From positions 1-35,392 of the IMG/VR virus record IMGVR_UViG_3300026544_000012: a DNA stretch of 35,392 nucleotides; one strand, given 5' to 3'. Shown one piece after another: positions 6,014 to 25,613 of the stretch. Position numbers and translations under genes: made by a program. Under the pieces are notes generated by a model. The model saw only the letters and a list, made by a program, of their open reading frames with translations, made no database searches and was not told the DNA's origin. This DNA is from a virus. Every line of letters starts with the position of its first letter. Position 1 is the first letter of the stretch.

Positions 6014-6480
6014 AAGAATGTCTCCTTATCTAGTCCTAGAATTGTTTGATCGTGAAGTATCCCATTCTTTCTGAAACTTTTGGTCATAACTCCTTGTTCG
6101 ATCATACCGACTTTCCTTGCAAATACTTTTGCTGGTTTGTTGAATTCCGGGACAAAAGTGCAGATTTTTTCACACACATTTGCATGATCCTCAAAAAACC
6201 ATTTAGCTGCTCTGCGTACATCATGTACCGCCTGAATACCTCTTCCTTTTGGTTTAATCATGGTGTGAACGTCGTACAGCACCAGAGTAAGAGGAACCAG
6301 CATCAGTAATACATATTCGCTCGGTTGAAGCATCCATACCATGGGGAACGATAACAATGTGCTGCCGAGACTCTTGTTATCCATATCAGTGTGATCATCG
6401 CTGATATCAGGGAGGATTGCCGGATGAGTCATGAAACTGTTGGCAATATCTCTCCCTACTTTGTTATGTGCCAACCTCAT
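6001..6480 (-). CDS. GNAT-fold acyltransferase-like phage protein (P22 gp14 / DUF2824-like)
   Basis: A 159-residue protein that looks like a GNAT-type N-acetyltransferase. It opens with an IANSFMTHPAILPDISDD segment, then a beta strand pair (YVLLMLVPLTLVLYDVHTM), then KPKGRGIQAVHD, which fits the acetyl-CoA-binding R/Q-x-x-G-x-G loop, and the FNKPAKVFARKVGMIEQGV helix-strand seen near the GNAT C-terminus. Proteins of this type sit among the ejection genes of many podoviruses, with P22 gp14 as a likely relative. Whether it is still an enzyme cannot be told. Its start overlaps the stop of the Hint-domain gene by ATGA. Confidence 0.6.
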   Translation of the reverse strand: MRLAHNKVGRDIANSFMTHPAILPDISDDHTDMDNKSLGSTLLSFPMVWMLQPSEYVLLMLVPLTLVLYDVHTMIKPKGRGIQAVHDVRRAAKWFFEDHANVCEKICTFVPEFNKPAKVFARKVGMIEQGVMTKSFRKNGILHDQTILGLDKETFLCQR

Positions 6481-8060
6481 ACATCAACCAACTCTCTGTC
6501 AGTCCCGATAAGGGCAAGCCCTGACACCACTGTTCCCTCGACATTCCAAGTACAAGTTTCACCCATGAGGAAAGTATAAACGAATTCTTCATCACTTTCA
6601 TAATAACGTGCGTCAAGCCGGACATCCTCTCCATCAATGTTCTGACCGAGATCACCCATTTTAATTTGAGTGACAAGATCATCGGTAAACTCGAGAGGAG
6701 TTGCGATGACTTGCTTCATAGTTCCGTCCTTGAGTTCAACGAACGTCGGGAAGCTTTTGATAATCTCATTGTCCATAGCGGCTTTGTTGAATGCTCCCCA
6801 CTTGCCGTTCGCTAAGAGGAAAGGGTGTTCCCCGGTAAAGACAACGTAATCATGATCTTTCAATTTCCACAACACTCGCCCGGCAACAGGTACTTTCTCA
6901 ACACCATTGACTCTATTTACGGAACCGTTTGCACCCATGAGTTTGTCACCCTCACGGACATCACGAACTTTGATCAAATCGCCTTCGCTGTTTACAGTGC
7001 ATGTGTCGCCAAGGAAGCAAGAGTGTTCTTCCATCATGTCGTTATTGTAAGGGTCGTAGTTACGGTTGTTATTTGATGTTTGTTTTGGGGGTGGAGCAGG
7101 TGCGGGTGTCGGTGCATATTGGACATTGTTATCTGGTTGAACCTTGACATCAATCTCGTAACCATAAAGGTCTGATAACAGTTTTACATCGTTGACATAC
7201 CGACGGTTTTGGTTGGCCATGATTCTATTTTTTTGATCAGCACTGAGGTCTGGGTCAGTTGCAACCTTTGACAATTCAACATAATTTTGTCGAGTCATTT
7301 TATCATATGATTCGCTGAAGAATTTTCGTGCATCCTCTGCCAGCTCTTTATTAGCAATCACCTCTTGAGATCTGAGCCGGGCCTCATTGGTTTGCACATC
7401 GACATCAGCAGCAATCTGTTGCCGTTCGGTTTGACTCAACTCGCTGAGTTCAGCCAGCCATTTATCAACTTCAAGTTTTTCCTTTAACCGCTGCGCTTCG
7501 CCAAGTTCAGTGAGCTTCAACCGTTCCAATGAGGCATCATTTTGCATGCCCTGACGTTCGGTTTGGCCGGCCTCAGCAAGTTGCGCCCTCTCAAGAGCAG
7601 ACTCGTTTTGCATCCCTTCTTTTTCGAGCATACCGAGATTCCCCAGTGCTTCACCCCGTTCTTTTAATTCATCTCCTGCGTTGGACATGGAGACGTTGGT
7701 GTTGAGCTGGGAGTTGGTGGATCTGGCAACATTGGTGGCATCTTGATTCGTAAGGCCCTGTTTAAGGTATGTCTCAGCGTCCTGTTGAGCAATCGGTAAA
7801 GCAGCGTCAATGGCAGCGGCCTCGGTCGCTTGCGCCCCCATAGAGGAGTTTAATAGCCCCCGATCAGCAACATATTGTTTGCCACTGGTTCTGGCCCGGT
7901 CAATATATTTACTATCATCATCGAGGAGACTATTTAACTGACCCCTGACAGTGTCAGTGTTAGCGTTGACCTCACGCTGTTTTGCCTCGTAGTTGGACGC
8001 TTGAGCAGGTGTGCGATCTTTGTCAAGTATCGACTTTGAATAGTCTTCGCTGGTTGCCAT
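6477..8060 (-). CDS. Coiled-coil ejection protein with a C-terminal Hint domain
   Basis: A 527-residue protein with two parts. Residues ~1-300 are helical and Gln/Glu/Asn-rich with repeats (EGMQNESALERAQLAE, then QGMQNDASLERLKLTE), as in internal virion proteins. A proline hinge (APTPAPAPPPK) and Asn-rich linker lead to a Hint (hedgehog/intein) module at ~348-527. This begins with Cys348 in CFLGDTCTV, continues with DVREGDKLMG, and has the block-B motif TGEHPFLL. The end (TWNVEGTVVSGLAL) resembles the last Hint strand but lacks the His-Asn pair of splicing inteins and any C-extein. It may cleave or ligate at Cys348 rather than splice. AGGAG precedes the ATG. Confidence 0.75.
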   Translation of the reverse strand: MATSEDYSKSILDKDRTPAQASNYEAKQREVNANTDTVRGQLNSLLDDDSKYIDRARTSGKQYVADRGLLNSSMGAQATEAAAIDAALPIAQQDAETYLKQGLTNQDATNVARSTNSQLNTNVSMSNAGDELKERGEALGNLGMLEKEGMQNESALERAQLAEAGQTERQGMQNDASLERLKLTELGEAQRLKEKLEVDKWLAELSELSQTERQQIAADVDVQTNEARLRSQEVIANKELAEDARKFFSESYDKMTRQNYVELSKVATDPDLSADQKNRIMANQNRRYVNDVKLLSDLYGYEIDVKVQPDNNVQYAPTPAPAPPPKQTSNNNRNYDPYNNDMMEEHSCFLGDTCTVNSEGDLIKVRDVREGDKLMGANGSVNRVNGVEKVPVAGRVLWKLKDHDYVVFTGEHPFLLANGKWGAFNKAAMDNEIIKSFPTFVELKDGTMKQVIATPLEFTDDLVTQIKMGDLGQNIDGEDVRLDARYYESDEEFVYTFLMGETCTWNVEGTVVSGLALIGTDRELVDV

Positions 8061-8074
8061 TATTTGCTCCTCTT

Positions 8075-8539
8075 TTACTTGTCGATGTAATCCAAGAAAC
8101 TTTTACTAATCTCAAATGCAGGTGGATTCCAAGACCGCATGTCGTTCAGTCTTCCACCGACTTCTCGCATAATGTCCGTCACTTCTCTCATCGTAAGATT
8201 ACCATCGATCAGGTCAGTTACCGACTGGCACTGGGCTTCGATATCACTGTCCTTGTAACCACTAAGGTTCCAGTTAAATAATACCAGAGCGTAATCTTTG
8301 AAAAATAACAAGTGATCCTTCGTTGTCTTTTCAAAAGCGATCCAATGATACATTTTATTCAAGACATAAGAGGCGTCTTTGATATCAGCAACAGGATTTT
8401 TGTCCTCTTGCATGAGTTTGATATCAGCATAAATATCATGCCACAATTTCTCAAATTCACCAGCGGCCCCCGCCAAAAGACCACGCAACGCCATTTCATT
8501 CGAGAAAAAATTCTTCATTTTCTTTAAAATTTCATTCAT
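8075..8539 (-). CDS. Hypothetical helical protein coupled to the radical SAM genes
   Basis: A 154-residue, largely helical protein of no family I recognise, rich in aromatic residues (MYHWIAF, FFKDYALVLFNWNLSGY). It overlaps the stop of the second radical SAM gene by 8 bp, so translation is probably coupled. It is followed after 14 bp by the Hint-domain protein. It could be an accessory or substrate-recognition subunit for the radical SAM enzymes, or simply a small virion protein. The coupling favours the first reading, but no RiPP-recognition-element motif can be asserted by eye. Confidence 0.6.
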   Translation of the reverse strand: MNEILKKMKNFFSNEMALRGLLAGAAGEFEKLWHDIYADIKLMQEDKNPVADIKDASYVLNKMYHWIAFEKTTKDHLLFFKDYALVLFNWNLSGYKDSDIEAQCQSVTDLIDGNLTMREVTDIMREVGGRLNDMRSWNPPAFEISKSFLDYIDK

Positions 8540-9902
8540 TACTCATCCTCTCAACTTCGATCATGGTTAAAGCAAGCTCCGAATTGAGCTTTGACACAAC
8601 ATAATTAAAAACGCCCAGCCGTTTAAAGAACTCTACTTGTGTCTTTAACTTCATATGCTGCAGTAAACACACACTCGGTATTGGTGTAAAAGCATCCCCT
8701 ACCGACTCAAACTGCGCCCCCGGACACCCTCCTGAACAAAGATGCTTTATCAGGCAATTTTCACAATAAGGCAGTGCCTTGTGTTCAAATGTCAGAGTTG
8801 CCATGTAAAACGTGATATTCAATGGCTCAATATCAATTATCTTATCATCTTTAACCACAAACTTGAAGCCATTAAGAGCGTCATATGACAGTCTGTGACA
8901 CGAGTTGCAGGTAAGGTCGCTCATTTTAACAAATAACGTAGTCTGCAACGAACAACCGATCCCTCTGCCGATGATCGATATATTATTGAAAAGGTTCATG
9001 CTCGACCCACGATAGTCTTCACTCGAGAACACAAAATTATCCACATAATACTTTGGAAGATTGCTGGGTAAAACACTGTTTCCAATCATATTGTATGTGA
9101 AATTAAGAGTCCATGACATGAACTCTCCATACTGTTTGATCGTTTCCTTTGTCCACCCCTCATTGCGAACTTCGAGCAGGTACACGTTGTTCCATGCTAA
9201 ATCATATTTTTCAAACATGCTCTGGAACCAGACAAAGTTATCTTTCCAGACATGGATGTTTTCCGAACTGATCATGGGATGAAAACCAGCATGATTACGT
9301 TTACAAAACGCAAACACATCATCGTAAAATTCATCACTGTAGTACTCATCAATGTCTACATTTTTCACCGGAAGTCTGGTGATCTTATCAGCAAACTTAC
9401 CGTCTATAGAGGCACTGATTGGCACACTGACACCGTGTTCTGCACCGAGCGCAATAATATCTTCAATACTTTTTACGAGTTCCGGGTCACGGATAAAAGA
9501 CATATTGCTCGGTACAACTACCGATCCTTTGTAACCAATATCGATGTAAAATTGTACAGCCTTCCGAATGATGTCATGGCTCTGTTTGAAAATGAGAGAG
9601 TCACCGCTGAAAATATCGATTGTTTTCGGGATATAATTGTTCTCTTTCAGCCAGTTAAACAATATGTCGGTGTTTTTCCCCAACTGATCCCATGTCGCTA
9701 CCCCGGGTTTATTTAGCTCTTTCCCGTGACCGACGACATTGCTGTAATAACAATAACTGCATTTCAAATTACACTGCGACGTCAATTGTATTTCAAGAGT
9801 ACCGAATAAGTTTCCCTCTCTGTCGGGGTTCTTGAAATCATCGAAAAATGTCCCTTCCAATACTGACTTAAGCAGCTCCTTGTTTTCCCCTTCGTAACTC
9901 AT
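8532..9902 (-). CDS. Radical SAM / SPASM-domain enzyme (rSAM-2)
   Basis: A 456-residue radical S-adenosylmethionine enzyme. The CxxxCxxC motif that binds the catalytic 4Fe-4S cluster is C44-C48-C51 (TSQCNLKCSYCYYSN). The following ~270 residues fit the partial TIM barrel. The C-terminal part carries a textbook SPASM pattern, Cx2Cx5Cx3C at C380/C383/C389/C393 plus C412, and upstream Cys residues (IGCSLQ, LTCNSCHRL) that can complete two auxiliary clusters. SPASM enzymes typically modify ribosomal peptides or proteins by epimerisation, C-C or C-S crosslinking or Cys/Ser oxidation. The start overlaps the rSAM-1 stop by ATGA. The substrate is inferred to be the adjacent octapeptide-repeat proteins; the chemistry is unknown. 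Confidence 0.9.
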   Translation of the reverse strand: MSYEGENKELLKSVLEGTFFDDFKNPDREGNLFGTLEIQLTSQCNLKCSYCYYSNVVGHGKELNKPGVATWDQLGKNTDILFNWLKENNYIPKTIDIFSGDSLIFKQSHDIIRKAVQFYIDIGYKGSVVVPSNMSFIRDPELVKSIEDIIALGAEHGVSVPISASIDGKFADKITRLPVKNVDIDEYYSDEFYDDVFAFCKRNHAGFHPMISSENIHVWKDNFVWFQSMFEKYDLAWNNVYLLEVRNEGWTKETIKQYGEFMSWTLNFTYNMIGNSVLPSNLPKYYVDNFVFSSEDYRGSSMNLFNNISIIGRGIGCSLQTTLFVKMSDLTCNSCHRLSYDALNGFKFVVKDDKIIDIEPLNITFYMATLTFEHKALPYCENCLIKHLCSGGCPGAQFESVGDAFTPIPSVCLLQHMKLKTQVEFFKRLGVFNYVVSKLNSELALTMIEVERMSNE

Positions 9903-11266
9903 TTAGATAATCCCTTCTCTATGATCTGCTCCAACAATCCATTACCGAACAATTTAAAATATGCAGGATCTGTCAGATGCATCGACCCGGTATATTCATT
10001 GTTCCTTGTCAGACAGGAGTGTCGGTTGGTTGCAAAAATAGCAAGTAGTGTGGCCATGTCCTTGTTTTTGTAGCAGGGGTTGACCTGTCCACATTTCGCC
10101 ATTGCGAAAATTACAGATACTGCAAATGACACCCTGAATTTGTAAAAATCATGAAATCCCCGCATGAAATATTGAAATTTGTCCATCTTCTGCTGAGTGA
10201 TTCCTTCAATTTTTACGAACATGGTTCTCTTGGTATTTTTAGTTCGACCACTGTCAAGATTGTCCACCTCTCTCGAACTATTGATCCTCCCTAAGTCATT
10301 CCTTATTGCATCCTGAACTTCATCATACGGGGTGTAAAATGTGTCATGGCACGGCTGAACATACTCACTAATACCGAACTGGGTATCACCGGCTGAACAA
10401 GTAAACATCCGGGACTTGGTGAACAGCTCGTTACCGTATTTCATCACCCTGTCTATCGTCCCATAGTATGTTGAAAAAGAAGGAACAGCATATTTGTAGA
10501 GATTTCTGGATCCCAACTCGTTAACTGCTTTGTAAAATTCAGAAAGCACTTGGCCGTCTCTCTTGGTATATTTATCAGGACATACCAAAGTAGGGTCACA
10601 GTCATTACTGATACTGACTTTACGGTCAATATTGGCGTCATACATTCTGATCAAAAGCTGATCGAAAAACCGATAATGATCTTCAAGTTTATCCCCGGTC
10701 AAAAGGGACTCATACTGATCTTTGCTCATCGTTGGTTTGAAATGCACTTTAACTTCATGCTTCAAGTCTTTGATGGCATTCACGTCCCGGATAAATTGAA
10801 CAATATTATTCTGGATCGGTATTGTCGTTCCTTCCCCCCGATTAACCTCGGTCACCCAAGATTCACCATCGAGAGACATCTGCACATCTATCGTAAACTC
10901 CCGGTCAAGAGGGAGGTTACTGATAAATTTAGAAATAATCCCGGGTCTTGTCATAAAATTTGACGACAATTGTATTGAATTTAAATTTGGGAATTCTTTA
11001 ACTGCTTCAACATAAAAATCGTCGAAATATTGCAGGGTTAGGGTTGGTTCTGATCCCCAATGACTGATTGTCACAAGTTGATCTTTTTCATATAATTTTC
11101 GGAGTCTGTTGATTATCGGGGTGACTGCAATAATGTCCCTGATAATTTCCTGATGTTTGTCCTTTATCATCTGGTTGTGTTTCGGGATACTACAGTATGC
11201 ACAATCAAGGTTACACCATGATGCGGCAAAAATTTCAGCAGCAACCCCCGTCGTGGTTAAATTCAA
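9899..11266 (-). CDS. Radical SAM enzyme with auxiliary-cluster-like C-terminus (rSAM-1)
   Basis: A 455-residue radical SAM enzyme. The cluster motif is C18-C22-C25 (SWCNLDCAYCSIPKH). A GSEPTL sequence near residue 91 fits the SAM-contacting GGEPT-type motif of maturases, and VQMSLDGE near residue 149 fits the barrel. The C-terminal third has CSAG...PCHDTF, a spacing typical of the twitch or SPASM region, followed by CGQVNPC and a further Cys. The likely role is modification of ribosomally made polypeptide. The start is a TTG codon behind AAGGGA; no in-frame ATG is nearby. It follows the 217-residue repeat protein by 26 bp and overlaps rSAM-2 by ATGA, so the genes form one translational unit. 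Confidence 0.88.
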   Translation of the reverse strand: MNLTTTGVAAEIFAASWCNLDCAYCSIPKHNQMIKDKHQEIIRDIIAVTPIINRLRKLYEKDQLVTISHWGSEPTLTLQYFDDFYVEAVKEFPNLNSIQLSSNFMTRPGIISKFISNLPLDREFTIDVQMSLDGESWVTEVNRGEGTTIPIQNNIVQFIRDVNAIKDLKHEVKVHFKPTMSKDQYESLLTGDKLEDHYRFFDQLLIRMYDANIDRKVSISNDCDPTLVCPDKYTKRDGQVLSEFYKAVNELGSRNLYKYAVPSFSTYYGTIDRVMKYGNELFTKSRMFTCSAGDTQFGISEYVQPCHDTFYTPYDEVQDAIRNDLGRINSSREVDNLDSGRTKNTKRTMFVKIEGITQQKMDKFQYFMRGFHDFYKFRVSFAVSVIFAMAKCGQVNPCYKNKDMATLLAIFATNRHSCLTRNNEYTGSMHLTDPAYFKLFGNGLLEQIIEKGLSK

Positions 11267-11292
11267 AATAAATCCCTTCCCTTCTCTCTTTG

Positions 11293-11946
11293 TTAATTTG
11301 CATTTCCGTAATTGTCCTGATCATCACTATGGTAGTTCGAGTTTCTCACTGTGCCATATTTAGTGTGGTAATACGAAATATCCATGCCACTTTTATAATT
11401 GCTGTCGGCTGTACCATAGATAGATGCGTTCTGAGAAGAATCGACCTGCGTGTACAAGGCCCCATCATAACCGATATCCCGGGCAGTATTGTAAGTAGCA
11501 TGTCGATCATTATGCACATTAGTGTAGAGAGTCGCATCATAACCGACATCCTGAGTGGCATTATGCGAACCGTCGTCTGCTGCATCTACTGTATTGTGAA
11601 GAGTAGCATTATAAGAAGCGTCATGAGTGACATGGTCAGTGTCAAAATTGGAAACGTCCTGAGTCGTATCTTCATTGCCGTCGTTCGAAGAAAACTCGCT
11701 GGTGTTGTAGGTGACATGATGTGCTGCTTTATCTGACAGGCAGACATTTTTATCATCAGCGTAATCAACAGCATCCTGCACCTCAGTGTATATGGACGCC
11801 TTGATCAGAGTTCCTTTAACAGGGATACTCGACAACCAATTGAATCTCGGGGCCAATTTGGCATCAGTGAGAGTGTTGACGGCATCTTTGAGTTCCGAGT
11901 AAGAACTTACTGTAACTATTTTTAATGGTTCCCATGTAAATGCCAC
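11293..11946 (-). CDS. Octapeptide-repeat protein 2, probable tail appendage and radical SAM substrate
   Basis: A 217-residue protein. Residues 72-215 can be written as 18 unbroken 8-residue repeats, for example YNATLHNT, HNATQDVG, YDATLYTN, YNTARDIG, YDGALYTQ, VDSSQNAS. The loose consensus is aromatic/Val, Asn/Asp, small, Thr/Ala, polar, His/Asp/Tyr, any, Thr/Ser/Gly. This regularity suggests a beta-solenoid or fibre. The N-terminal ~70 residues are a separate head with the motif KGTLIKASIYTEVQDAVDYA, similar to its neighbour and to the tail fibre. The start is GTG behind AAGGAG; an overlapping ATG is out of frame. It sits directly upstream of the two radical SAM genes. I recognise no published family. 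Confidence 0.85.
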   Translation of the reverse strand: MAFTWEPLKIVTVSSYSELKDAVNTLTDAKLAPRFNWLSSIPVKGTLIKASIYTEVQDAVDYADDKNVCLSDKAAHHVTYNTSEFSSNDGNEDTTQDVSNFDTDHVTHDASYNATLHNTVDAADDGSHNATQDVGYDATLYTNVHNDRHATYNTARDIGYDGALYTQVDSSQNASIYGTADSNYKSGMDISYYHTKYGTVRNSNYHSDDQDNYGNAN

Positions 11947-11958
11947 ATCGACTCCTTC

Positions 11959-12462
11959 CTAATTGCTGTTTCTGACAGTGCTATATTTATTATGTTTATG
12001 GCTGCTGTTCTGATTGTTATCTACAGTGTTATGCCTTGATCCACGATATGTCAAATCACGAGCAGAATTGTAGGTTGCATGCTGATTGTTGTCCACCTGA
12101 GTGTAGAGGGCAGCGTCGAACCCGATGTCCTGTGTTGCATTGTAAGTGGCGTGTTGATCGTTGTCCACCGTGACGTGTTTGGTTCCGTTGTAAGTCAAAT
12201 CTTTGGTTGTGTTACGAGTGCCGTGATCATCATTATCCACCGCATGGAGCTTTGTCGTATTATAATTAGCATCATGCCCTGCGTCATCTGCACTTTTTTG
12301 ACTGGCGTCATCTGATAAGTATTTGGTTGTGTAGTTGGTGACGTGATGAGTGTTACAGGTCAAATTATCTTGAATATGATCAAGATTCGTCCTCATTTCG
12401 AGGATCTCCGGTGTCTTGATGAGCTTTCCTCTGATTATTTTATTTGTCCAGATAAAAGACAT
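11959..12462 (-). CDS. Octapeptide-repeat protein 1, probable tail appendage and radical SAM substrate
   Basis: A 167-residue paralogue of the next gene. Residues 35-162 form 16 exact 8-residue repeats (for example YNGTKHVT, VDNDQHAT, YNATQDIG, FDAALYTQ, VDNNQHAT, YNSARDLT), with a 24-residue super-period in the middle. The repeats begin with an HHVT-ending octad, as in the paralogue, and both proteins carry a TVRNSN motif at or near the C-terminus. The short N-terminal head has RGKLIKTPEILEMRTNLD, matching the head motif of the paralogue. The repeat is conserved in protein more than in DNA, so selection acts on the protein. It lies 14 bp after the tail-fibre gene. Confidence 0.85.
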   Translation of the reverse strand: MSFIWTNKIIRGKLIKTPEILEMRTNLDHIQDNLTCNTHHVTNYTTKYLSDDASQKSADDAGHDANYNTTKLHAVDNDDHGTRNTTKDLTYNGTKHVTVDNDQHATYNATQDIGFDAALYTQVDNNQHATYNSARDLTYRGSRHNTVDNNQNSSHKHNKYSTVRNSN

Positions 12463-12476
12463 AAAACAGGTCTCCC

Positions 12477-14111
12477 TTATGAATAAACTGCATATGAATA
12501 AAGACGCTGAATAATTGACCAGTTCCCGGAAGGATCTGCAACAAGAGCAATGTAATCAAAGTTAATGTTCAGAACAACGTCGGTACTCGCTTTATCGATC
12601 TGCTTGCCGTTGCGCCCGATGGTAATATTATTGGCAGCAGCATGTCCGACCTGATCTTTTACATAGACCACGTCCCCAGCAGATGCGTTGGCAGGGAGCG
12701 TGATTGTTATGGCCCCACTACTGGAATTTACAAAATATCCATGTCGTGCTTTTGCAACAAGAGATGCTGATATTTCCTTCCATTCAATATTGATATAGGC
12801 TGCAGTCCAGTTGGTTCCGTTGTAGACCATCATTGCCCCGGTGTTACTGTTCCAATAGAGCGCACCGGTGACCAATGCGTGACCATCATTATCTGAGGAT
12901 GGATCAGCGGTCTTGTGACCGAGATAACGGTCGTCAAAGGAGTCATAAACCGCTTCAGCCGCATTTTTTGCCACAATAGAAGCATCCCTTGCCGTTTCGG
13001 AGCCAGTCTTTGCTGCAACGGAGGCATCTCTTGCTGTTTCAGAAGCTGTCTGGGCGGCTTTAGATTTTTTCGAGTAATGGAGAGAAGAAAATTCAGACCC
13101 ACTTCCCTCTGGTACTGGGGAATTTTCTGGATGTTTTGCCCAATGCTTGGACTCTAGTGCATTTCCTTCGGCATTCTGGATGTCACCGATATTTGCAGCG
13201 ACCGTGTTGACGTCACCGATGTTTGTAGCAACCGTGTTGACGTTCGCCTCATTATTGGCAACCTTGGTGACGTTCGCCTCATTGTTGGCAACCTTGGTGA
13301 CGTCGGTGTCAATGGCAGCTACCTTGTTGACGTTCGCCTCGTTATTGGCAACCTTGGTGACTTTTGCATCGATAGCAGCCACCTTGGTGACATCAGTATC
13401 GATATTGGCGACCTTGTTGACGTTCGCCTCGTTATTGGCAACCTTGGTGACTTTTGCATCGATAGCAGCCACCTTGGTGACATCAGCATCAATGGCAGCT
13501 ACCTTGTTGACGTTCGGCATATTGGCGTCGACATTGTTGATCTTCGTCATGTTGGCGTTGACGTTATTAATGTCTCCCATGTTGGCATGGACATCGTCAA
13601 TTGCAGCATAATGAGGGTTCATCAGTGCTTCTTTGGCAACAACAATATTTTTAGCGGCAACCGATTCATTTCTGGCGTTGTCCGCATCTTTATAAAATGA
13701 GTTGGGGATGGCTCCTGTAAAAACGAACTCCGATCCGTTATAAGTCAACTCAACGACCTGTCCGTTAATAAAATCCCCGGCAAGAACATCAGTTCCGTCT
13801 GGCCGTTTGATTGATATCGCCCCAAGACCGTCGACATTAACTGTCGATGATCCTGTATTTGTATGGGTGGGATTAAATTTTACAGTGAGTCCATCGTGGT
13901 AGCCACTGGGAGGAACAGGCATAGAGAGGATGTAGGAATTTGCTGACCCTGAGTCGACACCATATTGAAGGCTACCCTCTTTGAGTTTATCCGGAGGAGG
14001 AAGCATATCAAACCCTCTCCCTGTCTCGTCTCGAATAGCATTAACTTCCGAAGATTTAGCCAAAGACCCAGCAACAATCCTGTTTTGGGTTGCATCAAAA
14101 TATATACTCAT
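12477..14111 (-). CDS. Tail fibre protein with decapeptide repeats
   Basis: A 544-residue fibre. The N-terminus (AGSLAKSSEVNAIRDETGRG) is a tail-attachment type motif. Residues ~30-140 form a beta domain (TVNVDGLGAISIKRPDG). Residues ~170-320 are more than a dozen 10-residue repeats of the type NNEANVxKVA / AIDADVTKVA, usual in trimeric phage fibre shafts, followed by Ala-rich repeats (SETARDASVAAK). The C-terminal ~120 residues are a beta-rich tip (YVKDQVGHAAANNITIGRNG) likely to contact the host or a chaperone. It overlaps the nozzle-like gene by ATGA and precedes the octapeptide proteins. Receptor unknown. Confidence 0.85.
   Translation of the reverse strand: MSIYFDATQNRIVAGSLAKSSEVNAIRDETGRGFDMLPPPDKLKEGSLQYGVDSGSANSYILSMPVPPSGYHDGLTVKFNPTHTNTGSSTVNVDGLGAISIKRPDGTDVLAGDFINGQVVELTYNGSEFVFTGAIPNSFYKDADNARNESVAAKNIVVAKEALMNPHYAAIDDVHANMGDINNVNANMTKINNVDANMPNVNKVAAIDADVTKVAAIDAKVTKVANNEANVNKVANIDTDVTKVAAIDAKVTKVANNEANVNKVAAIDTDVTKVANNEANVTKVANNEANVNTVATNIGDVNTVAANIGDIQNAEGNALESKHWAKHPENSPVPEGSGSEFSSLHYSKKSKAAQTASETARDASVAAKTGSETARDASIVAKNAAEAVYDSFDDRYLGHKTADPSSDNDGHALVTGALYWNSNTGAMMVYNGTNWTAAYINIEWKEISASLVAKARHGYFVNSSSGAITITLPANASAGDVVYVKDQVGHAAANNITIGRNGKQIDKASTDVVLNINFDYIALVADPSGNWSIIQRLYSYAVYS
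13165..13560 (-). repeat. 30-bp coding repeats of the fibre shaft
   Basis: Roughly 30-bp units, each coding one decapeptide of the fibre shaft, run through this stretch. The segments 13321-13396 and 13411-13486 are identical over 76 bp at an offset of 90 bp, so three decapeptides were recently duplicated or homogenised. The repeat is in frame, so expansion or loss would change shaft length without a frameshift. Confidence 0.85.
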
Positions 14112-15973
14112 TTTTTCAATCCTTTACGGGAGTAATGAACAGTGGCCCCTTGAATCGTGTGAGGTTCTTCATATTTACAAACCGACTTTAAGCTGAATCT
14201 AAAGTTCCTGCCAATCCCAGTCAGATACCCATATGCGGTACTGAGTGATTGAGAGTCCCAGTAAAAGTTTTCCCAGTATGATAAGTCCCACAGACCGACT
14301 CCCGATCTAATCTCGACAGTTTTTTCATAAGCCACAGGAAGATACGGATCTCCGTAACTGAATTCCGGTATAAATGTTAATTTGAAGGGAGCAGCAGTCA
14401 ATAGTTCAAGTGTTACTTTAAAGAATCTCTTCACATGTTCAGGACTGCCGTAGTGATAAAACACAGGACGAATGTAAGCAACAACTTCATCTCCGTCGAA
14501 GCTGTTACTGGAATCCATTTTATAAACATAGCCATGATTATCACCAACAAACAACAATTCGTCCCCGTCTTGTTCATTTACGGACACACCCACTTGGAAT
14601 ATTTTTTCAATAAAGTTTGCATTGGTGTCGTAATGGCCGTAGTTCGCCTTGGTGATCCCTTTGACAATCCCAGTGTTGGATCTATGGACTAAATCAAGAG
14701 CCAAAATGAGAACCGTCCCATCGGAGAAAAACATCCGATACTGATCCTTTTTTCTAACCCTCATGCTAAACAGGAGTGTTTTTTTCAACTGATCAAGCAG
14801 CGGTTTCACCTTCTGGCTGATGGTGTTCATGGTGAAATCACCGTACTCTTGAGTGGTACTCAATCTTTTTACACCACGGTCACCGAGGAAGAAAGGAACG
14901 TCCATTGTCTGGACAGATCCCTCTATTGCTCCAGCATCGATTGAATAAGTTTTTATGTTCCAGTTAGCACTGGACGTCCCATATAACAGATCTATTTTAT
15001 TCCGGGCAAATACTGCTAAAGTGTCACCCGGGACATTGGCAAACCCTGTAATTTCATCACCGATGGCCATCTCACTTGCCCCGGTAATAGCGTTCCATTC
15101 ATGTGGTGCGCCAATAGAAGAGTGCTGTATCGAACCCCCTTCAAATGAGAAAAACAGGTGATTTTTGAAGGCATAAACATGAGTTGGTTTATCAATTGTC
15201 ATCCCTGTGTCAAGGAACCAGAGACTTTCTCCATCATAAGTGAACCCTTTGCCCACCCCATTGGCCCCGAACATTGCCTGTCTGCTGGTGTGACCATAGA
15301 AGTTGTAATTGATGAATTCGTAGGTTCCTCCGGGTGGGAAAGTCAGTTCTTTTTGTGCAGCAGTGTTCACTGCAGCAGTTGTTCCCCCAACCGTGAGATC
15401 CTCTCCTGCCTGAAAAGTGCCTGTCAGAGTCCCGGGAACAATAGTCAACTTACCTGCAGCATCACCATCGGCCCACGCACCGGTATAATTTAAGACATAA
15501 GCGATCACCCCAGTGGCCCCCGACGCACCCCCGGTAATGGTGTCACCTCTTACAATTTTATTGGCCCCAGCGGTAAAATTTAACTGGAAAGTGGTGTCAA
15601 TCCCCACCCAGCCGGTTGGTGTCGCTTTATACATGACACAGGCAGTCCCTGCAGCATTGTCACGAAACCCGTAAATTTCATTTCTTAATTTCCAAATCCC
15701 CCGCACTACACCTGAACCCGGGAGAGGTAGTATCAGCACACGAGCAGCTTCAACCGCAGCCTCCCATGCATCAAGGTCAGGATAATTTCCCGGGTCAAGA
15801 CCTTCTGGGCTAGGATGACCATCAAACCGCTCAAACCCGTCGACCCGACGATATCCGTCGTTGCTCGAATTCTCATAATTCATTGAATGATGAAGCTCTC
15901 CGGCATCCATCGTTATGACGGGGTCAACTAGATTTTCACCGCCAGTGAATTTAAAGAAATAGGTTGTCCTCAT
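14108..15973 (-). CDS. Tail nozzle / hub-like structural protein
   Basis: A 621-residue beta-rich protein. The start (TYFFKFTGGENLVDPVITMD), followed by NYE...GYRRVDGFERFDG, is shared by a widespread tail protein encoded just after the head-tail adaptor in podovirus-like phages. Later segments such as GDRGVKRLSTTQEYGDFTM and YRMFFSDGTVLILALD look like beta-propeller blades. The inferred role is the tail nozzle or hub that the fibres and ejection proteins attach to, comparable to P22 gp10 or T7 gp12 in position. It overlaps both neighbours by ATGA. The fold is a guess from repeated strand patterns; no enzyme motif is seen. Confidence 0.7.
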   Translation of the reverse strand: MRTTYFFKFTGGENLVDPVITMDAGELHHSMNYENSSNDGYRRVDGFERFDGHPSPEGLDPGNYPDLDAWEAAVEAARVLILPLPGSGVVRGIWKLRNEIYGFRDNAAGTACVMYKATPTGWVGIDTTFQLNFTAGANKIVRGDTITGGASGATGVIAYVLNYTGAWADGDAAGKLTIVPGTLTGTFQAGEDLTVGGTTAAVNTAAQKELTFPPGGTYEFINYNFYGHTSRQAMFGANGVGKGFTYDGESLWFLDTGMTIDKPTHVYAFKNHLFFSFEGGSIQHSSIGAPHEWNAITGASEMAIGDEITGFANVPGDTLAVFARNKIDLLYGTSSANWNIKTYSIDAGAIEGSVQTMDVPFFLGDRGVKRLSTTQEYGDFTMNTISQKVKPLLDQLKKTLLFSMRVRKKDQYRMFFSDGTVLILALDLVHRSNTGIVKGITKANYGHYDTNANFIEKIFQVGVSVNEQDGDELLFVGDNHGYVYKMDSSNSFDGDEVVAYIRPVFYHYGSPEHVKRFFKVTLELLTAAPFKLTFIPEFSYGDPYLPVAYEKTVEIRSGVGLWDLSYWENFYWDSQSLSTAYGYLTGIGRNFRFSLKSVCKYEEPHTIQGATVHYSRKGLKK

Positions 15974-16641
15974 GCCACCCTCACCGCCATCATTTCAGGG
16001 TTTATCTGACTGCCTTCCTGCTGCTCAGGCAAGTACTCCCCTTCAAGTTTTTTGAACCACAGTTCGTACTCCTCTTTAGCTTGGTTCCATTGATCAATGG
16101 ACTCAATGTCCTCAAAGAACCACATTTTGGCACGAGCAATGATCATCCGGTGATATTCTTCTGCATAAAGAGGAACATCATCATTCAAAATGAGACGTTT
16201 CGGCTTCTTCCAGTATTCGGCATAAATTTCATGTGACCCGTTTGAGGGTGCGCTCAGTACCAAATTATTATCCGGCATAATTGCAATCTCATATGGCTCA
16301 CTTTTGGTCTTTATGTTGTTGTTTCTGCGCCATTCGTCATAATGGATCAGTCGAAGAGATCGACCCTGAGGAGTCCCCCGGTCAATTGCAAACGATTTTC
16401 TGTCCCACATGGTAAAGTTAGGTGGTCTGACTACGATGTCAGCACCGTCGACAATAGGGAACTTGAAAACCTTCCACAGAAAATTCCAATCAGTGTGCAT
16501 GGTTTGAATCAGAACATCTGCATCAGCCACCCAGTCCACAAGTCGTTTCAATAATCCAAATTGACCAATTACCGACGACGCACCTTGGCCTTGGATACCA
16601 CACTCCTGACGGGTTATCTTTACCATTTCAAGAAAAGTCAT
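15970..16641 (-). CDS. Head-tail adaptor (connector) protein
   Basis: A 223-residue protein resembling podovirus adaptors that bind under the portal. The start MTFLEMVKITRQECGIQGQG, then LLKRLVDWVADADVLIQ and an aromatic HTDWNFLW segment, is a recurrent pattern of this family: an N-terminal helical bundle that includes the Gly-containing loop. The middle is beta-rich, and the C-terminal helices (EEYHRMIIARAKMWFFEDIE) again fit. It lies between the head genes and the nozzle-like gene, where an adaptor is expected. The start overlaps the preceding stop as TAATG. The end overlaps the nozzle gene by ATGA. Confidence 0.7.
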   Translation of the reverse strand: MTFLEMVKITRQECGIQGQGASSVIGQFGLLKRLVDWVADADVLIQTMHTDWNFLWKVFKFPIVDGADIVVRPPNFTMWDRKSFAIDRGTPQGRSLRLIHYDEWRRNNNIKTKSEPYEIAIMPDNNLVLSAPSNGSHEIYAEYWKKPKRLILNDDVPLYAEEYHRMIIARAKMWFFEDIESIDQWNQAKEEYELWFKKLEGEYLPEQQEGSQINPEMMAVRVA

Positions 16642-17345: not shown

Positions 17346-18247
17346 TTAGGCCTTAGAAGTCCATTTGAGGATACGACAGTTTTTGTCGTCGTTGTGAACC
17401 AGCCCGAACCCACCGAGATAGTACCACGCCACACCTTTTTCACGACCGAAGTCAGCAGGGATTGCTCCACGCATTTCTTCAGGAATGACAACGGCCTCAG
17501 CAACAGTATCTTCACCGAAGAAGTGAACATCATCGGATTTCTTGTTGGTGGCAAAGTTCACAGTAGCCGCAATGTTAGTTTGCTCGATGAAACGAACACC
17601 TTCATAACGACCAATTTCACCGTTCATGATCAACCGGAAACCGGCATCAACATACTGATGAATACCCTCGAGGTCATTTTTGACCTGACGGAAGGTACTT
17701 GGACGACCGATTGAGAAGTAATCTCCACCCTTGAAGGTAGGGATGTTCCGCTCTTTCATTTCGTCCACGATTGCCTTGACGTGATCCTTACCAAGGGCCA
17801 CGTTGTTAGTGATGGTACAACCACCAGTTTCAACAACAACTGCATCAGTTGCAGTGGCCGAGGCTACAGTAACCTTGGTTGCGTCAAATTGCGCCCGTGC
17901 CTGAGCATCAAACACCTTGGAGGCGTCGTTTTTCAGGACTTTCTTGATCACTTCTTTTACAGGATGCAGAGACAAATCATCCAGTTTCGAAGTGAAAGGC
18001 ACACTGTTACCAAATTCAGTAACGGTCAACTCACCCTGACTGATGGTGAATTTGGTTTTTGGAATTGCAGTGTTCTCGGTTAATGCTGCACCGGCAACTG
18101 CCACATCAGAATACACGTTCCAGTGAAACTTATCACCGGCACTGTAACCTTTGTCCATTGCATCTTTGGCATCACAATGCTGACGATACCGACACTGAGG
18201 CTGAACTTCCATCCGCAGAATATCGGACAATTCGTCTGAATACATAT
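17346..18247 (-). CDS. Major capsid protein, exon 2 (N4-gp56-like HK97-fold coat)
   Basis: This exon encodes residues 14-313 of the coat protein; with exon 1 (18996-19035) it gives 942 nt, exactly 314 codons including stop. Family signs are YMYSDELSDILR at the exon junction, GDKFHWNVYSDV, LTVTEFGNSVPFTSKLDDLS, HPVKEVIKKVLKNDASKVFD and the late IGRYEGVRFIEQTNI motif of N4-gp56-type coats. The reading frame stays open upstream to an ATG at 18356, but those extra residues (MRHIMKVIVKIKSG...) are translated intron and do not belong to the protein. The scaffold gene lies immediately upstream and the terminase/portal genes beyond it. About 300 copies or more per virion would be expected for an icosahedral head. 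Confidence 0.88.
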
Positions 18248-18995
18248 CGTTTTTGTTACTCCACTTAATGTGGGGGATAGTCATTTCTGCTACCCTCTGC
18301 ATATCTCTATGCAGACCAGACTTTATCTTCACAATTACTTTCATAATGTGTCTCACGTAAAGTCGTTGAGGTTCGCCTCAACCAGATGTCCATTGTGTCC
18401 TTTTCTCTTAACAAAACGCTTATAAAATTCAACAATGAGTTCGCAATCTCCCTTATCGAGAGGTATTCTTTTATTTCCATTGTTATCAGCAAATTTATTT
18501 ATACGTCTTGCAAGATACTGGATCATGAGAGAAAGTCTATGTTTCTTCTCTCCGAACATCCACGGATGTAATAGCTTCCCAAGTAAATAAGCATCACCAA
18601 TATTTTTAACTGAAATGCTGAGCATAATTCTAGAAGTATCACCATAAACTTTCCCGTTTTTCATTTCCATCGGGATTTGTGATCTTTCTGTCATATACTT
18701 TTTCAAACCAAGCCTCTCAATTATGTCTGATGCTTTTGCAATTATTCCAGCATCAGTATTGTATAATTTTATTTCATTGCCTATCTTTGGTTTACTTCCT
18801 TTTGCATTTCTGATGTAGCAGGATAATGATATTGTTCCATCACATTCTATGACTCCTGCTAACCAAGCTATTTCACCTTCGGTTGGGATTTCCTGCTGAT
18901 TGTCTCTATTCATAACACTTTCTCCTTAGTAGAGGTTATGACCTGCGAGGGTTTCCAGCATACAGTGAGATTTATGGTGAGCAATATGTCTGTTT
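18248..18995 (-). ncRNA. Group I intron in the major capsid gene
   Basis: A 748-nt intron after the 13th codon. P1: exon GGTGGGT pairs with the guide GCTCACC (18976-18982), with the required U-G at the 5' splice site. P10: intron CATAT (18984-18988) pairs with exon-2 ATATG. The intron ends in G (18248). Core: P3 TCTCAC (18965-18970) with GTGAGA (18351-18356); P6 hairpin 18365-18382; P7 GACTTTA (18358-18364) with TAAAGTC (18319-18325), preceded by the usual AAGA joining segment; P8 as an imperfect hairpin between them; P9 hairpin 18297-18314 with a GAGA loop. Splicing joins GGG-T to AT-ATG, giving Gly-Gly-Tyr-Met-Tyr. P4/P5 pairing near 18940-18960 is not fully resolved by eye. Confidence 0.88.
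18353..18913 (-). CDS. LAGLIDADG homing endonuclease inside the group I intron
   Basis: A 186-residue intron-encoded endonuclease with one clear LAGLIDADG motif, WLAGVIECDGTISL at about residues 16-29, keeping the acidic residue before the final Gly. A single motif implies action as a homodimer; a weaker second helix (AYLLGKLLHPWMF) is less convincing. Its role would be to cut intron-less capsid alleles near the junction and drive intron homing. It has its own AAGGAG site before the ATG. Its last codons (LNDFT, TGA) run through P6, P7 and P3' of the ribozyme, so protein and RNA constraints overlap there. Confidence 0.88.
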   Translation of the reverse strand: MNRDNQQEIPTEGEIAWLAGVIECDGTISLSCYIRNAKGSKPKIGNEIKLYNTDAGIIAKASDIIERLGLKKYMTERSQIPMEMKNGKVYGDTSRIMLSISVKNIGDAYLLGKLLHPWMFGEKKHRLSLMIQYLARRINKFADNNGNKRIPLDKGDCELIVEFYKRFVKRKGHNGHLVEANLNDFT

Positions 18996-21328: not shown

Positions 21329-23554
21329 TTATCCCTGCCCCATCTCTTCTGCCGCTGGAACCATTCCATACTGATCCCGCATGAGTACGGAGCTGATACG
21401 ATCATTGCTGTCCGTCAAGAGAGTCAGTTCTTTCTCTCGTTTCTGGAACTCAAGAGTTTCTTGCTGCAGGATTAACTCACCCCGGGCAATATCATTCTTC
21501 TCAGCAGCGACCTGCTCTTTGATGTATTTGATCTGCATGTCGAGCTGGGCAACCTGTTTCTCGGCATCAAGCTTCATCTGCATCCGCTGAGTATCACCCT
21601 GCTCCTTCATCTGAACAGCTTCCAGCTTAACTTGGCCCTCAGCTTGTTTCTCAGCCGCACCGGACTCAATCTGCTGGGTGAGCTGTTCGACCTGTTTCTT
21701 CAATTCTGCTACCTGTGGATCCTCTTCATCTTGTGTGGTGAAGAATCGAGACCCGTCACGATATCCCAATGCACCAAAGACTTCACGCATGACTTCATCA
21801 CCATTGATCTGACTCAGTTTCTCAGGCATGAATTCACCAACTGTTTTCAGTCCAATACTCAGCTTCTCGATCCGTTTATGCGGTGCGGTTGCACCATAAC
21901 CGACAGCCACTTTAATAGCGTACTCAGTATCCATGAGTGCAGCCACTGTGCCGGGATCAGCACCTTCACCGACGATCTTGAGAATGCGTTGGTCGGTCTC
22001 ATATTTCTGCCCCATTGTGATGAGTTGTCGCAACACCCCTTCAACCCATGTTTCGGTGAACACCCGAAGCTGAAACTCGGTCACTGCATTGGAGTCATCC
22101 GAGGCAATATCCATTCCACCGACGGTTTCATTGAGATGTCGATTGGTCTGCACAGAACCCATGCTGAAGCTACCCAGCAGCTCATCAATATCAACATTGA
22201 TTCGATCCTGCTCCTGATACGCTGAACTGGTGACATCATTAAATTCCTCAGGCTCAACGTCGTCCAAACTGTCCATAAGGATGACACCCCCGGGAACTGA
22301 GGTTGTTAATGCCCTCCAGTCCACATTCGTGCCACGTCTCGCCCGGTATCGTTTGTTCAGAATCAGTTTGATATTGTCGAGTCGCTGGTTGGTGACGTCG
22401 TTTGCCTCAACCACTAAGTCTTGAGACAGCTCTGGTACACCTGTGCTGTAATTTCGATGCGGTTCGATGACAATTGAGCCAACAACATACGGTCTACCAT
22501 GCAGGAAGACATCTTCCAGAGGGACTGGATCAGACAAAAGATGCTCTGTCCCCAGTGTGTAATAGAGATAATCAACCCCACTGTGTCGGATGATGTTGCG
22601 ATGCACCCAGACAATATCAAACAGTTTGATCTGATGACTCTGATCCTTTGAATCCATCCGCTTGCCTTCACGGGCCATGCGGGTTGTGTCGTAGTCACCG
22701 GTTTGTCGTGCAGAAAGAAGATGCTCTGGGTTGACGTTCTTCCATTTGGTCTCCCCTGTTTTACTGTTGGTGGTTTCAGTGCGCTCAATGACATCCTGCA
22801 CGAACATCGGAATCATTTCGATCAGGAAAGGGGACGTTCCAACTGGGTCACGCCAGTCTGATGCGGTGCTGAATCGGAAGTTCTCAACCGGGACAAGGAC
22901 GATATCGGGCTTGTCTATCTTGATACGATGATTTGTCTTTGACTCTGTTTGTGGTTCCCCGTCTTCATCAAGAACAACTAACCCATTTTCAACAACAACT
23001 TCGTCCTCTTCAAACTCTTCTTCCTCATAAACCCACTCTTGACGGGATATGACGATACCGTTGACCATGGCTTCATTGTAGGCCCCAATGATGGTTTTGA
23101 ACCACTGGATTGAATGCTCCAGACGAAAGTCCACCCAGTTCTTACCGAACTTTGCACCGAGGATTGAGTTCTCATCGTTCGGATCTTCCGGGTCACAACT
23201 TACTGTGTCAATCGTACTGAAAAATGCCAGTGCTGCAGCAGCTTCATGGCGTCTGATAATGGAACGGACTTTGGGACGGAACACTTTGGAGCGATACTTG
23301 TAGGACTCCTGATAATACTTAGAACCTGCTGGGTGTTTGCTGCGGAATAAAGATATGTTTTTCTCGAGCTGCTTACGGATGTTTGCGTCGAAATAGTCGG
23401 TACTGGTTTCGAATGAGTCACGGGCCATCGCCAACCAATTCACTTCGCCATCGATGTCATAACTCTCAAGTGTCTGGTCTTGCTTCTGTTGAGATTCCTC
23501 GTCACCACTGTAATCGTCATTATTTTCCTGATCGTAATCCTCTGGGCGTTGCAT
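21329..23554 (-). CDS. Portal protein
   Basis: A 741-residue portal, forming the dodecameric ring through which DNA is packaged and ejected. Consistent features are the acidic N-terminus, the early helical segment with YYQESYKYRSKVFRPKVRS and RRHEAAAALAFFST, the wing region with PVENFRFSTASDWRDP, and DVTNQRLDNIKLILNKRYRARRG, which fits the long stem helix. The C-terminal ~130 residues are a Gln-rich coiled coil (from VAELKKQVEQLTQQIE), expected to form a barrel inside the head. Length is in the upper range for P22-like portals. Its start overlaps the preceding stop as TAATG. It lies between terminase and scaffold genes. Confidence 0.88.
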   Translation of the reverse strand: MQRPEDYDQENNDDYSGDEESQQKQDQTLESYDIDGEVNWLAMARDSFETSTDYFDANIRKQLEKNISLFRSKHPAGSKYYQESYKYRSKVFRPKVRSIIRRHEAAAALAFFSTIDTVSCDPEDPNDENSILGAKFGKNWVDFRLEHSIQWFKTIIGAYNEAMVNGIVISRQEWVYEEEEFEEDEVVVENGLVVLDEDGEPQTESKTNHRIKIDKPDIVLVPVENFRFSTASDWRDPVGTSPFLIEMIPMFVQDVIERTETTNSKTGETKWKNVNPEHLLSARQTGDYDTTRMAREGKRMDSKDQSHQIKLFDIVWVHRNIIRHSGVDYLYYTLGTEHLLSDPVPLEDVFLHGRPYVVGSIVIEPHRNYSTGVPELSQDLVVEANDVTNQRLDNIKLILNKRYRARRGTNVDWRALTTSVPGGVILMDSLDDVEPEEFNDVTSSAYQEQDRINVDIDELLGSFSMGSVQTNRHLNETVGGMDIASDDSNAVTEFQLRVFTETWVEGVLRQLITMGQKYETDQRILKIVGEGADPGTVAALMDTEYAIKVAVGYGATAPHKRIEKLSIGLKTVGEFMPEKLSQINGDEVMREVFGALGYRDGSRFFTTQDEEDPQVAELKKQVEQLTQQIESGAAEKQAEGQVKLEAVQMKEQGDTQRMQMKLDAEKQVAQLDMQIKYIKEQVAAEKNDIARGELILQQETLEFQKREKELTLLTDSNDRISSVLMRDQYGMVPAAEEMGQG

Positions 23555-24065: not shown

Positions 24066-25613
24066 CTATATGTCTTCTGCGTGTTCCGGGAGCAAGTCCT
24101 GCTGCATGACTTCCTCGATCATTTTGTATCCTACTGCCCCACAACGCAATGCATCTGCTCCATTGCTTGCTGCGTTATGAAGTGGTTTCAATTTGAATTC
24201 GCCAACATTCTTGTCCCACTCCTTGCGGTAGTTGTCAAGGCACTTGATTCCCTGATCACACAGTTCTTCATCAATGTATGCCGTGCCAAGGAAGTTTCGT
24301 GAAGCTTGAATTCCTTGTTGCACTTCCTCTGCATTCTTGGCCCTCGGGATCAATCTAATGTCACGCAATCCGAGCTTCATTGCGTACTCTCTGAAGGACA
24401 ACCCTGTCTGCGGAGAATGCTGTCGGCCATCGTGTGGCATGTAATGAGTACCGTAAATGTACTCTAACTTAAACAAATAATCAACGTAATATTGCAAACC
24501 TTCGCCCGAACCCTCAAAGTATCGGATTAACCTATTTTCAGTTCCAATGCGCTGATGAAACCACAATGCCATTGCATCATTGAAACCAATGTCCCAGAAC
24601 ACGTTGACCGGAACCAACGGATCATAAGCAATATTACCAATTCTACGCTGTTTCCGGATTATCATCATCTGGGTGGCAAAGTACGCCCCGATGACCGATG
24701 CATTGAAGGCTTCTTGTGGCGTTGATGGGAACTCTCGCATCATGTCATCCTGCTGAGTCTCATACTTCGCACAGTACCACCACTTCTGCTTGTCGGTGAG
24801 ATGAATCCCTTTGCTTTCCAGTTCCAAGAAGTAAATCTTCAAGTCCGAGCTGATCACCACAGGGGACTGCATCTGATACTTCTCATCCTTCCACCACGGG
24901 AAGAAGTGGAACCGAAACTGCAGCGGATTGAGCTTGATGCCACGCAGTAATCGATTCATAGCTGCCATGCAGAATTCGAAGAAGTAACCCTCTCGCCCCT
25001 CGGCTGTTGATTCAATGAAGATGAACTGGCCAGCGTGAACGGTGTTGATTGATCCGGTCACAATTTCCTGAGCTTTGGCAGGGTATCTGGCACAAATCTT
25101 CCCGAACTCGGACACATGCAACATGTAGAACGTCCCGGAACGCAATGACGTACCGACCCGGATGCTGGAGCCATTGCTGAATGACAGTTTCTTACTACTG
25201 TCGGTCGGAGCGTAAAGCTCATTGCGGATGGAGTCCGGGAGGTTGTCATATGCGAACCGGACTTTATTGCTGAAGAATTCCTCAGCATCTTCCCGGTTGT
25301 GAGCGATGATGCCGCAGTGAGTATCTGGTCTGAATAGAGCTGTGTCGAGGAAGAGAATACAGATGAACGTGGTCATTCCGAGCTGTCGGGCCTTGAGGAT
25401 GATGTTGAAGTACCACATGTTTTTCATCAGCTTGCGCTGCGCTTTGTTCATGCGGAATTTAACTTTGTTGCCTTTGATATCGATGATGTAATACAGGTTA
25501 TTGAGTCGCCACATCCGACTCTTCAGATTGATCTGGAGCTGATCATAGGACTTTTTTTCCTTAACATTCATCCCGGCCCCACCGACATAAGGAGCAGGAC
25601 TATTCGTCATCAT
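24066..25613 (-). CDS. terL: Terminase large subunit
   Basis: A 515-residue packaging motor. The ATPase half has a deviant Walker A, KARQLGMTT (about residues 74-82), a Walker B-type strand YMLHVSEFGK (about 163-172) and the coupling motif FIESTAEG (about 203). The nuclease half begins near VNVFWDIGFNDAMALW, where the Asp is the expected first metal ligand, and continues with later acidic residues. It would cut concatemers and pump DNA into the prohead with the small subunit. It overlaps the small-subunit gene by 14 bp. A second possible start is Met15. Confidence 0.92.
   Translation of the reverse strand: MMTNSPAPYVGGAGMNVKEKKSYDQLQINLKSRMWRLNNLYYIIDIKGNKVKFRMNKAQRKLMKNMWYFNIILKARQLGMTTFICILFLDTALFRPDTHCGIIAHNREDAEEFFSNKVRFAYDNLPDSIRNELYAPTDSSKKLSFSNGSSIRVGTSLRSGTFYMLHVSEFGKICARYPAKAQEIVTGSINTVHAGQFIFIESTAEGREGYFFEFCMAAMNRLLRGIKLNPLQFRFHFFPWWKDEKYQMQSPVVISSDLKIYFLELESKGIHLTDKQKWWYCAKYETQQDDMMREFPSTPQEAFNASVIGAYFATQMMIIRKQRRIGNIAYDPLVPVNVFWDIGFNDAMALWFHQRIGTENRLIRYFEGSGEGLQYYVDYLFKLEYIYGTHYMPHDGRQHSPQTGLSFREYAMKLGLRDIRLIPRAKNAEEVQQGIQASRNFLGTAYIDEELCDQGIKCLDNYRKEWDKNVGEFKLKPLHNAASNGADALRCGAVGYKMIEEVMQQDLLPEHAEDI

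Follow-up and report, generated by a model that had tools for sequence, protein, structure and literature searches.

The 35,392-nt IMG/VR virus record IMGVR_UViG_3300026544_000012, analysed here at its full length and referred to as the window, has a gene set like that of a short-tailed phage and carries, next to its tail fibre gene, a block in which two genes for tetrapeptide-repeat proteins (rep1 and rep2) are followed by two genes for radical S-adenosylmethionine (SAM) enzymes (rSAM1 and rSAM2) and one small gene, all on the minus strand. rep1 (11959-12462, 167 aa) consists of a short N-terminal head and a tetrapeptide array (11962-12345, residues ~40-167) of the pattern [DNHY]-x-[TSAG]-x that ends in KYSTVRNSN. 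rep2 (11293-11946, 217 aa, GTG start) has a head of ~75 aa and an array (11296-11718) with KYGTVRNSN near the C terminus, a stretch in common with rep1. rSAM1 (9899-11266, 455 aa, TTG start) has the CX3CX2C [4Fe-4S]/SAM motif at C18/C22/C25 (11192-11215). In rSAM2 (8532-9902, 456 aa), a radical SAM/SPASM protein, this cluster motif lies at C44/C48/C51 (9750-9773) and is joined by a SPASM-type set Cx2Cx5Cx3C...C (C380/C383/C389/C393/C412, 8667-8765). The last gene (8075-8539) encodes a small coupled protein of 154 aa, a possible helper. Reading from the fibre through rep1, rep2, rSAM1, and rSAM2 to the small gene, gaps of 14, 12, and 26 nt are followed by overlaps of 4 nt (rSAM1/rSAM2) and 8 nt (rSAM2/small gene), a purine-rich stretch resembling a ribosome-binding site precedes every start, and the order is operon-like. 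An earlier description made from the letters of the window (the sequence-only reading) had listed two repeat genes, two radical SAM genes, and a small coupled gene on the minus strand with short gaps or overlaps, and the genes were recovered as claimed; the translations also bore out both CX3CX2C motifs and the exact Cx2Cx5Cx3C cluster it had named in rSAM2.

Repeat arrays and enzymes of the block

Period 4 stood out in both repeat proteins against shuffles (z = 11.9 for rep1 and 13.2 for rep2), above period 8 (9.9 and 9.4), with period 3 at z = 1.5 and 1.9. The basic unit is thus a tetrapeptide, and not the octapeptide of the sequence-only reading. Position one of the tetrad, [D/N/H/Y]-x-[T/S/A/G]-x, is occupied by D, H, N, or Y and position three by T, S, A, G, or N; the octad is a pair of tetrads in which position four alternates between Y/V/F and Q/K/R/L, and rep1 also has a 24-residue super-unit. 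Neither array contains cysteine. Because NAY codons specify the position-one residues and no others, DNA pattern searches were possible, and a pattern for 14 consecutive tetrads gave nine matches in the window and none in 100 shuffles. Where aligned tetrad units have identical residues, about half differ in codon (9 of 17 between rep1 and rep2), which argues for a repeat maintained by constraint at the protein level and not just for recently copied DNA.

PHROG 1802 (radical SAM) matched rSAM1 at 4.8e-7 and rSAM2 at 2.6e-12, and PF04055 matched them at 20.5 bits (5.8e-4) and 16.8 bits (8.2e-3), both below the gathering cut-off of 29.5. Judged from these matches and their motifs, the two proteins are divergent members of the radical SAM superfamily. 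Besides its SPASM-type cysteines, rSAM2 has C317/C332/C335, and against the SPASM model TIGR04085 it scored 19.8 bits, under the cut-off of 27. The C-terminal cysteine set of rSAM1 is partial (C290, C306, C392, C398, and C418), without the Cx2Cx5Cx3C part. NCBIfam matches of rSAM1 were to sulfatase/GrrM/PapB-type models (1e-7 to 1e-8) and those of rSAM2 to QhpD/PapB/nif11 SPASM models (1e-8 to 1e-10); the nearest models are peptide or protein maturases (PapB, GrrM, QhpD, and anaerobic sulfatase maturase), all matched far under the family cut-offs.

SPASM enzymes usually serve clusters for ribosomally synthesized and post-translationally modified peptides (RiPPs), and the NCBIfam matches are RiPP maturases, as would be expected if the block made a secreted, bacteriocin-like RiPP against competing cells or phages with rep1 and rep2 as precursors. 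We give this explanation very little credence: the block showed no gene for a peptidase, an exporter, or immunity, and the two repeat proteins, at 167-217 aa, have structured-looking heads without a GG-type leader and lie inside a structural module.

Cysteine-tetrad modules in other viruses

Homologues were sought with single-sequence queries (rSAM1, rSAM2, rep1, rep2, and the repeat motif), and weak matches were considered up to E 10; these gave the lead to Salmonella phage SPN3US (E 0.04), which has two coupled radical SAM genes. In the DNA immediately upstream of this pair, the annotation of gp100 uses a wrong frame; the correct frames specify small proteins in which a head precedes a (C-x3)n array, e.g., CGGTCSWTCSNGCSHGC. 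The layout there (a long virion gene, a virion structural gene, Cys-tetrad proteins, one gene, a short radical SAM gene, and a SPASM radical SAM gene) is also found in Phobos, CR5, Machina, and Kwan, making four genera in all, and each of these phages has at least two (C-x3)n proteins between the virion structural genes and the coupled radical SAM pair. Unannotated or wrong-frame Cys-tetrad proteins were noted in SPN3US (L016, 4968-5366 and 5380-5781) and also in L021-L024, the unannotated repeat frames of Machina being gp176 and gp177, and the start of the SPN3US radical SAM gene gp102 is annotated too late, cutting off the CX3CX2C motif.

IMG/VR was scanned for eight consecutive CXXX units, and obvious low-complexity frames were removed. 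After filtering, there were virus lineages in which a CXXX repeat is joined to another domain and adjoins a radical SAM gene. In a 180-kb virus, genes for a protein with an F5/8C head and a CXXX array, a SPASM radical SAM enzyme, and a 102-aa helper directly follow one another after very large tail-type genes. A podovirus-like fragment (L084) combines a radical SAM gene and a helper with a tail protein that has Cys tetrads at its end; a T4-like contig (L274) has a Cys-tetrad repeat protein beside a radical SAM gene; and in a 292-kb virus a 778-aa Cys-tetrad protein lies two genes from a radical SAM/SPASM protein. The 292-kb virus also has three tandem radical SAM genes beside a 419-aa protein ending CHTVCHNNCYRDCHDDCHDDCYSD (L272, 7032-13341, minus strand).

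In NCBIfam, the enzymes of L084 and L102 were assigned to TIGR04115 (CXXX-repeat target maturase, cut-off 350) with 385.6 and 341.5 bits, and the L102 helper had a weak TIGR04116 match. With these two enzymes as seed, a further scan of IMG/VR gave 22 loci, L284-L287 being near relatives of one another. A CXXX gene lay ≤90 nt from the radical SAM gene in 11 of the 13 strong matches (10 of 11 counting non-seeds only), the two exceptions being the seed contig L084, where the array is short and falls under the threshold, and one locus cut at the contig end; since the seeds were chosen for CXXX, these counts describe conserved linkage and not independent discovery. The module comes after Tail_P2_I or DUF2612 genes plus another tail-like gene in L278 and L279, and after a 1,105-aa fibre-like protein itself ending in NVTG tetrads in L285-L287.

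Other arrangements were seen as well. In Pseudomonas phage pPa_SNUABM_DT01 (L329, 8642-18127), fibre-like genes are accompanied by six annotated radical SAM genes, two genes for 2OG-Fe oxygenases, and one for a cupin; among the radical SAM genes is one for a small protein whose C terminus reads CHTSCHTSCHS. Another type of Cys repeat (CxC..RT, e.g., CTCNARTNTCDCVDRT) adjoins radical SAM genes that come after phage tail-type genes in L289 (8487-9068) and L291 (8489-9970).

Profile alignment placed rSAM2 over its full length on the viral CXXX maturases (342 columns, 93.9%) and on the L274 enzyme (324 columns, 91.8%), with other phage radical SAM enzymes aligning mostly over the N-terminal core, and gave the first enzyme of the SPN3US pair as the best match of rSAM1 (93.9%, 105 columns). 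Since any radical SAM cores will align, the scores are no more than suggestive.

The Cys tetrads of L084 sit in a tail protein, in a domain that by eye resembles the C-terminal domain of the window fibre, and the fibre gene (12477-14111) adjoins the block. Both points would suit enzymes that modify another target, either this fibre or a host protein, with the repeat proteins as scaffolds or chaperones. The fibre, however, is without a tetrad array of the same kind, and the enzymes have two paralogous tetrad proteins as their nearest neighbours, so we think such a target improbable.

Proposed maturation of tail repeat proteins

On balance, we favour the explanation that the block is a phage maturation module in which rSAM2 and rSAM1 modify the rep1 and rep2 arrays iteratively and the products are tail parts. 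Most likely, rep1 and rep2 represent a thiol-free variant among phage tail repeat proteins that radical SAM enzymes mature. This reading is supported by the operon-like order, by period-4 arrays kept despite synonymous change, by the full SPASM-type Cys set of rSAM2, and by the recurrent pairing of Cys tetrads with radical SAM genes in tail or structural regions of other phages; the full-length alignment of rSAM2, which is best with phage repeat maturases, points in the same direction. Gene order, the common operon, tetrad periodicity, and the pairing found elsewhere suggest that rep1 and rep2 are the substrates, and their position after the fibre gene, together with the analogues, suggests that they are virion parts. 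The sequence-only reading had likewise proposed that the enzymes modify the repeats of a virion appendage. Tetrad proteins with phage-type heads beside radical SAM genes in several unrelated phage groups, and a repeat gene within 90 nt in all but one of the 11 non-seed relatives, favour that proposal by analogy, and the octad it gave as the unit is to be replaced by the tetrad.

In the proposed mechanism, the N-terminal heads of rep1 and rep2 probably attach to the tail or fibre. Once the array is translated, rSAM2, which is of the SPASM peptide-maturase type, and rSAM1, encoded in the same compact operon, would modify it iteratively through 5'-deoxyadenosyl radicals, with the modifications recurring every four residues. 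Cys thioethers are excluded as the chemistry because the arrays contain no Cys; C-C or C-O/N cross-links of Tyr/His and Asp/Asn, epimerisation, and desaturation remain as candidates. Our best guess is that residue i is cross-linked to i+4 or i+2 by sulphur-free bonds, from side chain to backbone or from side chain to side chain; an otherwise disordered tail would in this way become a rod or tip that is stiff and resists proteases. AlphaFold, run on the single sequence, modelled the rep1 head as a beta hairpin (residues 3-20, predicted local distance difference test [pLDDT] ~88) and the rest as disordered, which is compatible with a tail needing modification to become rigid and proves nothing.

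Several results weigh against maturation of these arrays. The link in the window comes from a single genome. Searches returned no homologue of the block: rSAM2 had none in IMG/VR, 50,697 phage records, or 84,980 species genomes, and rSAM1, rep1, and rep2 had none in IMG/VR or the 50,697 phage records. The contigs of the terminase relatives L003 and L004 (~70%) end before the block region or show no radical SAM gene. Patterns for D/N/H/Y tetrads matched mainly low-complexity frames or other repeat types in IMG/VR (among the matches listed) and in the species genomes, none of them with a radical SAM neighbour of this kind. The window arrays are free of Cys and have D/N/H/Y at period 4 instead, unlike all other phage modules of radical SAM and repeat genes found. 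Homology of the rep1 and rep2 heads to the 'WTD...HIxxLR' heads of CXXX proteins, good by eye, failed a hidden Markov model test and was rejected, as was a role of the small protein as a CXXX helper (hhalign probability <1% against viral helpers); the small protein had no significant match in Pfam, PHROGs, or NCBIfam. The single-sequence AlphaFold models were poor overall (pLDDT 46 for rep1 and 41 for rSAM2) and give no structural support. Other, unmodified-looking tetrad arrays in phage structural proteins, of the types HxGD, YxxE/YEGS, YTGS, and NVTG (L164, 2436-3915, minus strand; L203; L206; L230; L246), had no radical SAM gene detected in their records, which are mostly fragments, so a tetrad array alone does not imply modification.

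Such Asn, Tyr, or His tetrad arrays without a detected radical SAM gene, present in several viral contigs (mostly fragments), speak for rep1 and rep2 being ordinary structural repeats (NVTG/YTGS-like) and the enzymes belonging to an auxiliary cassette with no link to them, for modifying nucleotides, cofactors, or glycans, that lies by chance in a variable tail region. Radical SAM genes of phages are moreover found in sugar or metabolic settings, HTVC008M and KVP40 being examples, and the radical SAM cassettes in the host-recognition cluster of pelagimyophages have been described as variable cargo only (PMC7029224). This explanation nevertheless appears unlikely given the overlapping genes packed between the repeat genes and the small gene, the SPASM maturase type of rSAM2, and the independent phages that pair radical SAM genes directly with tetrad proteins. 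Radical SAM maturation of tetrapeptide-repeat virion proteins may even be widespread and largely unrecognised, a generalisation that we put forward tentatively, with the window as a thiol-free form in which two cooperating enzymes would cross-link or otherwise modify Asp/Asn/His/Tyr tetrads.

The setting of the block is that of a phage structural region. The fibre gene (12477-14111, minus strand, 544 aa) is backed by PHROG tail-fibre models (PHROG 38058 tail fiber, 2.1e-18; PHROG 22284, 3.1e-16), in agreement with the placement of the block behind a tail fibre in the sequence-only reading. Tail proteins (14108-16641), the major head protein (17346-18356), the portal (21329-23554), and the terminase (24066-25613) lie beyond it. 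The proteins downstream of the block are plausibly ejection proteins. A 527-aa protein encoded at 6477-8060 on the minus strand has a long N-terminal stretch rich in Ala, Gln, and Glu and carries a Hint/Vint-like domain in its C-terminal part (residues 347-422; PF14623, E 2.6e-4); an autoprocessing domain on this likely internal virion protein would be unusual. An open reading frame with a LAGLIDADG-like stretch LAGVIECDGTISL (18353-18913, minus strand) overlaps the start of the major head protein, has a GC of 0.358, the lowest in the structural region, and looks by eye like a homing endonuclease. The GC of the block is lower than that of its surroundings and the GC at third codon positions is equal, so the difference was attributed to amino-acid content, and recent acquisition judged from composition was rejected. 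RNA families and tRNAs were searched for, and none were found.

Comparison with known systems

Runs of radical SAM genes in phages have been reported before. Aeromonas phage 332-Vera has eight in its tail cluster, called highly unusual (PMC12390700), and a marine T4-like genome has twelve (PMC5332604); neither these two papers nor that on pelagimyophages (PMC7029224) names a tail-protein substrate. In open-access PubMed Central, no paper was found that explains phage tail radical SAM genes as tail-protein maturases, and a description outside that collection is possible. The statement of the sequence-only reading that no phage system of this kind had been described therefore stands for such an account in open-access papers; it does not stand for the cysteine version, which is a named NCBIfam system (TIGR04115/TIGR04116), and radical SAM genes near phage tail genes have been mentioned in passing (PMC7029224, PMC12390700).

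If the proposed maturation is true, some phages build tail parts from ribosomal proteins that undergo radical chemistry in the manner of RiPP peptides, and such alteration would be invisible to standard annotation or structure prediction. The unexplained runs of radical SAM genes in the tail regions of phages, with up to eight genes in one reported case, would then have a target and a purpose, and enzymes would be at hand that place repeated modifications along a protein and need no cysteine for it.

The SPN3US-like giant phages (Seoulvirus, Machinavirus, Derbicusvirus, and Wellingtonvirus, Erwinia and Cronobacter phages among them), in which the repeat genes are unannotated or 'hypothetical', have in common with the window two coupled radical SAM genes and at least two headed tetrad proteins right after virion structural genes. 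They differ in having Cys tetrads, a short first radical SAM enzyme (~300 aa), and the extra genes gp101, gp104, and gp105, and the heads and small protein of the window are without significant homology shown to theirs. The His-Xaa-Ser system (HxsA-D) is also similar, with two radical SAM enzymes, a repeat protein of the form [H]-x-[S/T], and one additional small protein. The arrays of HxsA repeat every three residues; those of the window have period 4, with Asp/Asn/Tyr as frequent as His, and rSAM1 scored 21.6 bits against HxsB (cut-off 370) and 15.7 against HxsC (cut-off 267.9), so the window proteins are not members.

Two peptide systems offer precedents, by analogy, for radical SAM enzymes acting on tetrad-spaced motifs (PMC9413430, PMC9062424). 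TvgB modifies every unit of the TVGG tetrapeptide array, to cyclopropylglycine (PMC9062424), and thus resembles the window in working on a tetrapeptide repeat; TvgA/TvgB, compared here by description only, differs in the repeat, in having no phage context, and in its single radical SAM enzyme with a dioxygenase. PapB acts on CX3D motifs, forming Cys thioethers, and like the SPASM enzyme proposed here it acts repeatedly on residues spaced by three, as in the ranthipeptide freyrasin with six CX3D motifs (PMC9413430). rSAM2 matched the PapB model NF047865 at 4.8e-9 and 35.9 bits (cut-off 340). PapB maturases, however, take CX3D/E substrates and so need Cys, which the window arrays are without, and its substrate is a short RiPP peptide and not a phage protein.

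In the CXXX-repeat system (TIGR04115/TIGR04116), as in the window, a tetrapeptide-repeat protein lies beside a SPASM radical SAM maturase near phage tail genes; the system has a helper of ~100 aa and in viral contigs comes after tail genes. Membership of the window block is contradicted by an rSAM2 score of 11.5 bits against TIGR04115 (cut-off 350), with no match for rSAM1, and the window also differs in having no TIGR04116 homologue and two radical SAM genes in place of one. Given the TIGR04115 score, the helper, the heads, and the missing Cys, the block would work like the CXXX modules and is not one of them. The cysteine version is thus already known, as the NCBIfam CXXX-repeat system, and what is new, and partly supported, is a cysteine-free form beside phage tail genes. 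The window looks like an unusual cysteine-free version of a sparsely described kind of system by which virus tails may be toughened or decorated.

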